A stretch of DNA of 64,000 bases from Streptomyces sp. SS1-1 (GTDB lineage: Bacteria; Actinomycetota; Actinomycetes; Streptomycetales; Streptomycetaceae): positions 310,001-374,000 of the forward strand of contig NZ_WBXN01000004.1 in NCBI RefSeq assembly GCF_008973465.1, read 5' to 3'. Below the pieces are notes generated by a model. It was not told where the DNA came from. It saw only the letters and a program-made list of their open reading frames with translations, and searched no databases. Below, piece by piece: positions 50,765 to 52,206 of this stretch. Made by a program: the position numbers and the translations under genes. The number at the start of each line of letters is the position of its first letter. The first letter of the stretch is position 1.

Positions 50765-51772
50765 TCAGGAGGCGCGCCGGAAGACCGCGGCCGGTCCGAT
50801 GACTCCGGGGCCGAACTTGTCCCGGACGCGGTCGACGGCGTCCTCGGCGACCAGCCGCGCCTCGCGGGCGTCGTCCAGGCTGATCTGCTGGGCGACCTGG
50901 TCGGCGCCGACGAGATCCGTGCCCTTGAGGGTCAGCCCGGTGAGGCGGCCGCGCTGGAGGCCGGCGGCGTCCATCAGCTGGTAGGCCACGGTCCGCAGGT
51001 CGTCGTCGTGCGCGGACACTTCGGGGAGGCGTCGGGTCCTCTCCCAGCCGCCGCCTCCGGCGAACGTCAGTTTCAGGGTGAGCGCGCGGGGGGCCTGGCC
51101 CCTGCGGCGCAGGAGCAGACCGAGCCGGACGACCAGGTCGAGGAGGGCGGCGCGGACGGCGGCGCCGTCCAGGGCGTGCCGGTCGAAGGTGTGCCGGACG
51201 GACGCCGTCGGGGGCAGCCCGCGCGGGACGACGGGGCGCGGGTCGATGCCGTGCGCCCGGTCGACCGCCGTACGGCCCGCACGGCCCCCGAGCAGGCGGT
51301 GCACGGTGGCGGGCGGCACGGCGGCGAGCAGGCCGACGCTGTGGACGCCGTACGCGCGCAGCGCCTCCGCCTGCCGGGGGCCGATGCCGTGCAGGGCGTC
51401 GACCGGCAGCGCCCCGAGCCAGGCGGTGACCTCGTCGGGGTGGACGGCCAGGACGCCGCCCGGCGCGGGGACCTGGGCGGAGGCGGTGGCCGCGACCGTG
51501 ATCGACGGCCCGATGCCGACGCGGACGTCGACGCCCAGCCGGGAGAGGGTGCGCACCCGCAGGACCTCGCCCAGGCGCCGGGTGTCGGTGCCGTGGTAGC
51601 GCAGGGCGCCCCTCAGTTCCACCAGGGCCGCGGAGGGGGGCAGGGCCTGGACGACCGGGGACAGCTCCGACAGTTCCTCCAGCACCCGCCGGTAGGTCTC
51701 CTCCCCCAGCCGCTCCGGGCACCGCACGTGCATCACCGTCGAGATCTTGCGCGCCGGTCCGTCCGTCGTCAT
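50765..51772 (-). CDS. Y-family DNA polymerase homologue (ImuB/DinB-like) lacking the catalytic N-terminus
   Basis: The product has 335 residues from ATG 51772 after AGGTGGGACC. It aligns with DinB only from the late palm onward: YRRVLEELSELSPVVQALPPSAALVELRGALRYHG, then VRVGIGPSITVAATAS, LPVDALHGIGPRQAEALRAYGVHSVGLLAAVP (thumb HhH) and a little-finger domain with LTLKLTFAGGG. The usual DxDAFFAxVE stretch is missing, and the SxDE motif reads SAALVE, so the carboxylates for metal catalysis are absent. It may be a mutasome adaptor (ImuB-like). It is not linked to dnaE2 or imuA here. Confidence 0.85.
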   Translation of the reverse strand: MTTDGPARKISTVMHVRCPERLGEETYRRVLEELSELSPVVQALPPSAALVELRGALRYHGTDTRRLGEVLRVRTLSRLGVDVRVGIGPSITVAATASAQVPAPGGVLAVHPDEVTAWLGALPVDALHGIGPRQAEALRAYGVHSVGLLAAVPPATVHRLLGGRAGRTAVDRAHGIDPRPVVPRGLPPTASVRHTFDRHALDGAAVRAALLDLVVRLGLLLRRRGQAPRALTLKLTFAGGGGWERTRRLPEVSAHDDDLRTVAYQLMDAAGLQRGRLTGLTLKGTDLVGADQVAQQISLDDAREARLVAEDAVDRVRDKFGPGVIGPAAVFRRAS

Positions 51773-51840
51773 GGTCCCACCTCCCGCACTCACCCCTTCA
51801 CGGTATCGAACAAAAAATCGAACACGCGAGGGCGCACACC
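51773..51840. promoter_or_regulatory. AT-rich divergent promoter with TCGAACA repeats
   Basis: In 68 nt between the polymerase-like and DUF6233 genes, ATCGAACA occurs twice (51805-51812 and 51817-51824) separated by AAAAA, an AT-rich stretch unusual here. A GTTCGAT copy in the opposite sense lies at 51869. It resembles LexA half-sites (TCGAAC) but not the full spaced palindrome. Confidence 0.4.
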
Positions 51841-52206
51841 GTGGATCTTGAGCATAGAATCAAAAATGTGTTCGATGACCTGCCGCCCGACCTGGACCGA
51901 CTGCGCACCCTGCGCGTCTGGCACGCCCTCTGGGTCCAGCGCATCGACGCCAAGATCGCGGCCCTGCAGCGGCGGCATGCCGAGGAGGAGAACGGCCGGC
52001 GGCGCCGCCCCGCACCCCCGGAGTGGATCGTCGAGCTCGGCATCGGCGCCGACCGGTCCCCGGTCCAGGTCCATGCCGGCGACTGCCACATGGCGGGACA
52101 GCGGCGCCGGGCCGTGAGCCGGGACGAGGCGCGCCGGCTGCTCGCGACGGGGCTGGAGGGGTGCAGCCACTGCGAGCCGGCCGCGCGGCTGCACATCATC
52201 GAGTGA
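51841..52206 (+). CDS. DUF6233 family small protein
   Basis: The product has 121 residues if GTG 51841 is used; GTG 51868 (VFDDLPPDLDRL) is an equally plausible start because many relatives begin there. Strings such as RLRTLRVWHALWVQRIDAKIAALQRR, PPEWIVELGIGADRSPVQVHAGDCH and ARRLLATGLEGCSHCEP identify the streptomycete DUF6233 family. A CxxC-like GCSHC near the C-terminus might bind metal. The function is unknown. It is divergent from the polymerase-like gene. Confidence 0.82.
   Translation: MDLEHRIKNVFDDLPPDLDRLRTLRVWHALWVQRIDAKIAALQRRHAEEENGRRRRPAPPEWIVELGIGADRSPVQVHAGDCHMAGQRRRAVSRDEARRLLATGLEGCSHCEPAARLHIIE

Follow-up and report, generated by a model that had tools for sequence, protein, structure and literature searches.

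The gene at positions 50765 to 51772 of the 64-kb stretch of Streptomyces DNA analyzed here (the window, C4:310001-374000 of a 7.8-Mb assembly) is a real, functional-looking member of an orphan branch of a known group of inactive polymerases, the scDinB2/iPolY proteins. By its sequence, the encoded protein is catalytically inactive. SOS control of orphan iPolY genes is well supported, with binding of LexA in the window predicted from a conserved box. The reading that we favor, with moderate confidence, is that this dead, SOS-induced protein serves as an adaptor that connects RecA and the sliding clamp with a catalytic polymerase, DnaE2 being the foremost candidate. No description of the orphan branch as such was found in the literature searched; one distant member has already been noted in S. 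venezuelae as a LexA-controlled 'DNA polymerase IV' (PMC9380542).

The gene and its start site

The minus-strand reading frame proposed by an earlier, sequence-only reading of this DNA was confirmed. The gene and its upstream region comprise the following features:

50765..51772, minus strand: orphan iPolY gene, 335 aa, ATG start at 51772
51777..51785, minus strand: putative ribosome-binding site GGGAGGTGG for the ATG at 51772, assigned from sequence and graded good
51800..51805, minus strand: -10-like element TACCGT, abutting the LexA/SOS-type box
51806..51821, no strand assigned: LexA/SOS-type box TCGAACAAAAAATCGA, 9 of 10 specified consensus positions
51868..52206, plus strand: divergent DUF6233 gene, 112 aa, long helix and possible Ada-like zinc domain (Pfam, model and profile comparison)

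An alternative GTG at 51793 would give a protein of 342 aa; its position approximates the transcription start expected from the -10-like element. The sequence-only reading had seen no upstream extension that could supply the missing polymerase motifs, and there is none: the whole open frame amounts to 364 aa, and a conserved promoter-like element lies just 5' of the start. Because this element and the LexA box stand upstream and the family starts at the same place, a longer N-terminus was rejected. The contig measures 7.55 Mb, and one of its ends is about 361 kb from the gene; the closest named match to its product is from Streptomyces sp. NRRL WC-3605 (96% identical).

Loss of the active site and of the fingers

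The window protein was aligned, within a set of 18 iPolY proteins, to eight DinB1 proteins (four from the same genus and four from the same order). The parts discussed below are:

51722..51739, minus strand: first palm strand, residues 12-17 (DinB1 alignment; strand E13-17 in the AF2 model)
51629..51640, minus strand: PPSA, residues 45-48, in place of S-L-D-E (DinB1 alignment)
51344..51439, minus strand: thumb helix-hairpin-helix (IMS_HHH), residues 112-143 (Pfam; 119-150 in the 342-aa numbering)
50876..51202, minus strand: little finger (IMS_C), residues 191-299 (Pfam; 198-306 in the 342-aa numbering)
50873..50887, minus strand: QISLD, residues 296-300, degenerate clamp-binding-like motif (QLTFD in the dnaE2-linked paralogue)
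50801..50863, minus strand: RecA-NT-like tail, residues 304-324 (..DRVRDKFGPGVI..), in the expected register

The three metal-binding residues of active DinB/Pol IV proteins, Asp, Asp and Glu, correspond to R17 (codon 51722-51724), S47 and A48, and the fingers insert, 64 columns of the alignment, is absent from the row of the window protein. All 18 iPolY proteins share one architecture, in which palm strand 1 is kept, the fingers insert is gone and the Asp-Glu of SLDE is broken; the first catalytic Asp is replaced by Arg, or by His in L230 and L177. In the larger set, Arg occupies the position of the first Asp in 66 of 68 orphans, in all 19 window-type proteins labelled as dnaE2-linked (18 plus L074) and in 28 of 29 DinB2-type proteins, L129 having been placed in no group. 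The Glu of SLDE occurs in none of 119 proteins. The second Asp is present in 25 of the 29 DinB2-type proteins and in no orphan, where Ser or Thr is found instead in 56 of 68 cases. The DinB2-type proteins themselves lack the first metal Asp and the Glu without exception (29/29), and the fingers are missing in the four that were aligned. The losses are thus family-wide and not peculiar to the window gene.

A protein with neither a metal site nor fingers cannot carry out synthesis, which bears out the earlier verdict that it cannot be a normal polymerase. Details of that verdict had to be revised. The N-terminal catalytic block and the first palm segment had both been considered absent; the Asp block is indeed gone, but palm strand 1 is present and reads VMHVRC where DinB1 has ILHLDMD. 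Nor does SAALVE represent the SxDE motif, since SLDE aligns with PPSA. The description of thumb and little finger as intact was sound, as Pfam recovers both (IMS_C 1.7e-12, HhH 1.2e-5). The palm family IMS matches only positions 73-147/148, with 15.8 bits against a cut-off of 23.2 and thus below it. An AF2 model (pLDDT 83, pTM 0.65) matches E. coli Pol IV far beyond chance (Z 22.4, rmsd 7.7, 272 residues aligned of a 342-residue chain), a modeled similarity that would be anticipated for a Y-family fold without its fingers. Structure prediction, which had been recommended as a check, thus upheld the family assignment; in the alignment, the missing piece is mainly the fingers, which the sequence-only reading had not described. 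Fold and domain order (palm, thumb, little finger) are shared with DinB1/Pol IV, whereas metal site and fingers set the window protein apart.

Two short elements follow the little finger or overlap its end. A search for a clamp-binding motif had been suggested, and a candidate was found, QISLD, weakened in comparison with the QxxLF type by the missing aromatic residue; Q296 and D300 are kept in 68 of 68 orphans. In the RecA-NT-like tail, the Phe/Tyr-Gly of the RecA motif is conserved among the orphans (F or Y in 67/68, G in 67/68). The similarity to RecA is weak: scores as high arose in 97 of 5000 shuffles and in 252 of 15812 background windows (nominal p about 0.02). The protein ends 14 residues after FG, and no further Pfam domain is found, the ImuB-C domain being absent.

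Relation to DinB2, DnaE2 and ImuB

The window protein groups with dnaE2-linked Streptomyces DinB2 and away from DinB1 (support of 0.98 for the iPolY branch against five DinB1 proteins). The arrangement of dnaE2 and DinB2 is known from S. coelicolor, and DinB2 was called an inactive Y-family polymerase in 2019 (PMC6511836); in 2026, scDinB2-like iPolY was described as part of a putative DnaE2B-iPolY-RecA complex (PMC12926913). Neither of the two main texts uses the word 'plasmid', and the fingers of scDinB2 are undiscussed in passages of both. Our genome contains this arrangement as well: a full-length dnaE2 is directly followed by a dead paralogue (C4:1452443-1456929, the paralogue itself at about C4:1452443-1453417), 1.09 Mb from the window gene. 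The two proteins are 39% identical and homologous over nearly their full length. Both have lost the first Asp and the Glu, both lack the fingers and their tail motifs are similar. The window type differs from scDinB2-like iPolY in that it stands outside the dnaE2 operon, has its own LexA-type promoter, often lies beside a DUF6233 gene, is patchily distributed and often plasmid-borne, and mostly carries Ser or Thr at the Asp of SLDE where the DinB2 type mostly has Asp.

The operon linkage with dnaE2 that is often seen for scDinB2-like iPolY is missing at the window locus. In agreement with the earlier statement that neither imuA nor dnaE2 lies beside the gene, its immediate neighbors are a gene of the zinc-binding-dehydrogenase family and the DUF6233 gene, and the 64-kb window contains no dnaE2 match. 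When the search for these partners was extended to the genome, as had been proposed, only one half of the pair appeared, namely the dnaE2 described above, and a partner would therefore be available in trans. ImuA was not recognized; a genome search with the RecA family (PF00154) returned RecA as its one match and no ImuA at E 0.001. Canonical ImuB was not recognized in the genome either (PF00817 search, with two matches below the cut-off elsewhere). Like ImuB, the window protein is a dead member of the Y-family, ImuB being thought to recruit DnaE2, and some ImuB proteins have also lost structural elements. Membership in the ImuB family was nevertheless rejected: the ImuB-C domain and the imuA/imuB/dnaE2 cassette are missing, no ImuA was found and the protein falls into a different sequence group.

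The only apparently active Y-family polymerase gene recognized in the genome, dinB1, is broken up, its coding sequence being distributed over three or more frames:

C4:1043568-1044551 (L014:5560-6579), minus strand, outside the window: split dinB1 (reading-frame check)

The IMS domain lies in one open frame in all 22 other relatives with a match. The split gene is either a pseudogene or the product of assembly errors; if the split is real, this genome is left with dead Y-family proteins only.

A LexA-type box upstream of orphan iPolY genes

The conserved element CTCGCGTGTTCGAWTTNNNGTTCGATANNNT is found upstream of 67 gene copies without dnaE2 linkage, about 25-35 bp before the likely start codon. 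These copies remained from 87 loci after removal of 20, i.e., the 15 dnaE2-linked loci, L074, and L110, L116, L126 and L129, the matches of which lack the N-terminus. We compared the central 16 bp of the element with the consensus from LexA ChIP-seq in S. venezuelae, tCGAAC-N4-GNNCGa (PMC9380542). Nine of the ten specified positions agree in 60 copies, ten in six and eight in one, whereas 41 of 1320 random 173-bp stretches from the same loci score 9 or 10. The consensus came from the literature and the scoring used the same 67 copies; the pattern used to search for the element already specified some positions of the right half-site and of the -10 element, and therefore only the remaining positions are independent. 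The same applies to the TANNNT of the -10-like element, which is present in 66 of 67 copies and was partly required by the pattern. A predicted LexA-type box common to the orphan copies, with a score of at least 9/10 in 66 of 67, is what is new in this analysis.

GTTCGA-N6-GTTCGATA has a single exact match in this genome, the window element. Two mismatches separate the window box from a perfect palindrome; near-palindromes with at most one mismatch number 27 in this genome compared to 15 for a control pattern. The dnaE2 gene of this genome is preceded by a 10-of-10 box 77 bp before the open reading frame. A further LexA-type box (C4:3543319-3543334, L140) is located about 10 bp before an open reading frame that, by eye, resembles a primase-polymerase.

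The distant relative from S. venezuelae offers a comparison from the literature. The pvnz_37140-pvnz_37135 operon on plasmid pSVJI1 is bound by LexA and induced 15- and 7.5-fold by mitomycin C (PMC9380542), and the exact published SOS box lies just 5' of a small gene that precedes an iPolY gene. The product of the latter, annotated as 'DNA polymerase IV', is 44% identical to the window protein and resembles it as an orphan plasmid homologue with a dead active site, a LexA box and both Ku and DUF6233 genes nearby. It differs in that the small gene precedes it in the operon and that small genes stand between it and DUF6233. The preceding gene (L176:4729-4980) encodes an 83-aa protein without relatives among the fetched loci at E 1e-3 and without a Pfam match, which could be another small accessory subunit.

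At three loci (L097, L098 and L101), the orphan iPolY gene is immediately followed by a gene for a LexA-like protein (58-59% identity to a LexA annotated on a plasmid), and the left half-site of the LexA-type box differs there.

Distribution and evolution of the orphan branch

Homologues of the window protein at E 1e-25 or better were found in 125 of 147 genomes of an order-wide sample, all of them tallied to the same genus. A listed match of at least 57% identity is present in 41 of 295 genomes of the genus, five of which have two. We count 34 of the 41 as orphan carriers, judged by identity among the matches listed; three of the seven set aside have dnaE2 adjacent and the remaining four are G167, G173, G004 and G038. 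The best match reaches at least 60% in 34 records of a plasmid collection (32 among the matches listed, all Streptomyces), and six of these 32 that were inspected are all linear; one 40% match among those listed is from Actinacidiphila. Four of five single-contig carriers have the gene at most 0.55 Mb from one contig end. Since it lies about 4.1 Mb inside in the fifth, G207, location in the chromosome arms is a tendency only.

Among the 87 loci, dnaE2 is located upstream on the same strand in 15, in 14 of them with the match ending at most 60 bp from iPolY and in L117 about 1 kb before it. With these and L074 set apart, 71 orphan loci remain, many of them shortened by contig ends. L074 (S. curacoi) was considered as a further dnaE2-linked case; what remains of dnaE2 there is a degraded fragment some 1.4 kb upstream. 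Three further dnaE2-adjacent iPolY loci are L038-L040. Most relatives with 59-63% identity to the window protein adjoin dnaE2 (L041, L118 and L129 do not), and loci with more than 63% identity have no intact dnaE2 alongside. In a phylogenetic tree, a clade of 69 tips (support 0.949), including L074, holds nearly all orphans, and 18 dnaE2-linked relatives form a clade (0.997) beside it, the joining nodes being weak (0.19, 0.38); in the tree labels, L074 counts as dnaE2-linked, giving 19. The 69-tip clade does not include the orphan L041 or the plasmid copy from S. venezuelae.

DnaE2 is encoded in 33 of the 34 orphan carriers, with 58-100% identity to the copy here, and is lacking in G279; given this exception and the fact that DnaE2 is common in the genus, the co-occurrence is not decisive. 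In the survey of 295 genomes, 17 are without a match better than about 1e-19 to the window protein. Two of them, G032 and G010, have DnaE2 (86 and 81% identity), at a contig edge in G032, and G010 holds a DinB2 fragment. The DnaE2 search yielded fragments only in G196, a more distant C-family homologue besides DnaE1 in G002, G113, G135 (37%) and G127 (35%), and only the 28-29% type in the other ten.

Window-type orphans are shown by sequence comparison to be under purifying selection. For these GC-rich genes, dN/dS (NG86) is 0.16-0.36 between the window gene and six other orphans and 0.10-0.53 for ten other orphan pairs, with the highest values in the closest pairs; values of 0.56 against the dnaE2-linked L107 and 0.97 against the DinB2 gene L201 are unreliable because of divergence. 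A phage origin was rejected, as each of four matches in phage records is below 60% identity, and so was a role in anti-phage defense, since PADLOC gave no match at E 1 to either iPolY or DUF6233.

The divergent DUF6233 gene

A divergent DUF6233 gene lies within 250 bp in 40 of the 71 orphan loci and in none of the 15 dnaE2-linked ones. In the window, its start is most plausibly at 51868 (GTG-TTC, conserved in relatives). A model of the protein (pLDDT 90.5, pTM 0.58) shows a long helix plus a small domain. We suggest that its C-terminal half may be an Ada-like zinc domain in which His stands for the methyl-acceptor Cys. The Ada N-terminal zinc domain is among the structure matches of the model, with Z values of 3.9 (rmsd 2.7, 50 residues) and 2.1 that are weak and unconvincing alone. 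When the two Ada zinc domains encoded in this genome were used for comparison by local hhalign, P was 3.1e-5 and the probability 73% (reversed control 0.45); in global mode hhalign gave nothing (E 0.079, 5 columns), and the link is absent from family and PDB sequence searches. A Foldseek search of the PDB returned no significant match, and the absence of UmuD- or YolD-like folds from it excludes nothing. Four residues are invariant, H69, C73, C99 and C102, and would be the zinc ligands of the modeled domain. Their spacing resembles that in Ada; in DUF6233, the first ligand is His instead of the methyl-acceptor Cys and there is an extra, long N-terminal helix. A literature search found no paper on the DUF6233 family, for which the pairing with iPolY offers a first testable context.

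Function of the orphan protein

According to the reading that we favor, DNA damage would activate RecA and lead to cleavage of LexA, the box at 51806-51821 would be freed and iPolY would be made. The palm remnant, the thumb, the little finger, the clamp-like motif and the RecA-like tail, all of them retained, could then provide a grip on DNA and on partner proteins, and the protein would bridge RecA, the sliding clamp and a catalytic polymerase, chiefly the DnaE2 encoded 1.09 Mb away. The orphan would thus be a second, mobile adaptor beside the dnaE2-linked copy. Contacts with DnaE2, RecA and the clamp are what we infer as most likely for this putative adaptor. The earlier suggestion of a clamp-binding adaptor in the manner of ImuB survives in its general sense, an adaptor being the best reading, but the protein is not ImuB and its clamp motif is weakened. 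The thumb of ImuB is one of two elements modeled to contact DnaE2, while the largest modeled ImuB-DnaE2 interface is located on ImuB-C (PMC12926913); the absence of ImuB-C from the window protein counts against this reading. A more elaborate and rather unlikely version would make iPolY and DUF6233 a mobile two-gene SOS module that combines a dead polymerase with a divergent Ada-like protein (methyl-acceptor Cys changed to His) and is spread by linear plasmids or arm exchange. As a second adaptor, it would direct the resident DnaE2/RecA mutasome to particular substrates, for instance broken ends or damaged backbones, and DUF6233 would be a small accessory subunit whose role is comparable to that of UmuD' or YolD.

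Partners other than DnaE2 are also conceivable. The orphan could be an accessory of break or end repair on linear replicons, a scaffold of gap filling for end joining by Ku and ligase with other polymerases. Of the 71 orphan loci, 16 encode Ku and 11 an ATP-dependent ligase within up to 10 kb on each side (24 encode either), compared to none of the 15 dnaE2-linked loci. Ku lies at most 6 kb from iPolY on seven of ten plasmids listed with both (0.97 expected) and about 1 kb away in S. venezuelae. However, the plasmids sampled are related (five of ten from S. canus), the query for Ku came from next to an iPolY gene and the best 60 Ku matches were used, gene order varies, and the 64-kb window itself contains no match to Ku or ligase. 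As variable NHEJ genes favor variable chromosome regions and plasmids anyway (PMC5124664), the link is suggestive only, and we regard end repair as unlikely. Distinctly unlikely in our view is a negative regulator or decoy that limits mutagenesis by competing for DnaE2, RecA or the clamp against the dnaE2-linked copy. A paralogue that has the same retained parts, a weakened clamp motif and a fuller loss of the active site, with Ser or Thr for the Asp of SLDE that most DinB2-type proteins keep, would fit such a role; window-type relatives are themselves dnaE2-linked in 15 loci plus three, and this type can therefore serve as an adaptor.

A helper in filling 3' overhangs at ends capped by terminal proteins would be in keeping with the frequent occurrence of orphans on linear plasmids. 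DinB1 or DinB2 has, moreover, been reported to be required for linear replicons (PMC4513846). Such telomere patching is very improbable all the same, because only about 34 of 295 genomes, judged by identity, carry orphans, although Streptomyces chromosomes are typically linear, and the LexA-type box points to induction by damage over housekeeping. The least probable explanation is a decaying polymerase gene without function. About ten of the 34 carriers have only partial or interrupted copies among the matches listed (G027, G059, G091, G109, G141, G146, G193, G235, G237 and G292), and L110, L116 and L126 lack the first 89 residues. The window copy, on the other hand, is intact, its dN/dS against other orphans is well below 1, the promoter is conserved and the identity of 96% to the nearest relative is like the 94% for the dnaE2-linked copy there.

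An adaptor role would suggest that Streptomyces has a reduced, fingerless version of the dead-polymerase adaptor known from ImuB. The sequence losses also make a puzzle more acute: linear replicons were reported to require DinB1 or DinB2, yet the DinB2-type proteins compared here lack the first metal Asp and the Glu and, in the four that were aligned, the fingers. DinB2 should therefore exert its effect by way of a different polymerase, or else the earlier conclusion has to be reconsidered. Our results further suggest that one branch of iPolY, now separated from the polymerase operon, is carried by linear plasmids together with an SOS-type switch of its own, so that plasmids may tune the mutation rate of their host under damage. 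Apart from the orphans, dnaE2-iPolY pairs with a 4-bp overlap occur on plasmids of S. anulatus (L050) and Streptomyces sp. S8 (L177), and whole mutasomes therefore also travel on plasmids.
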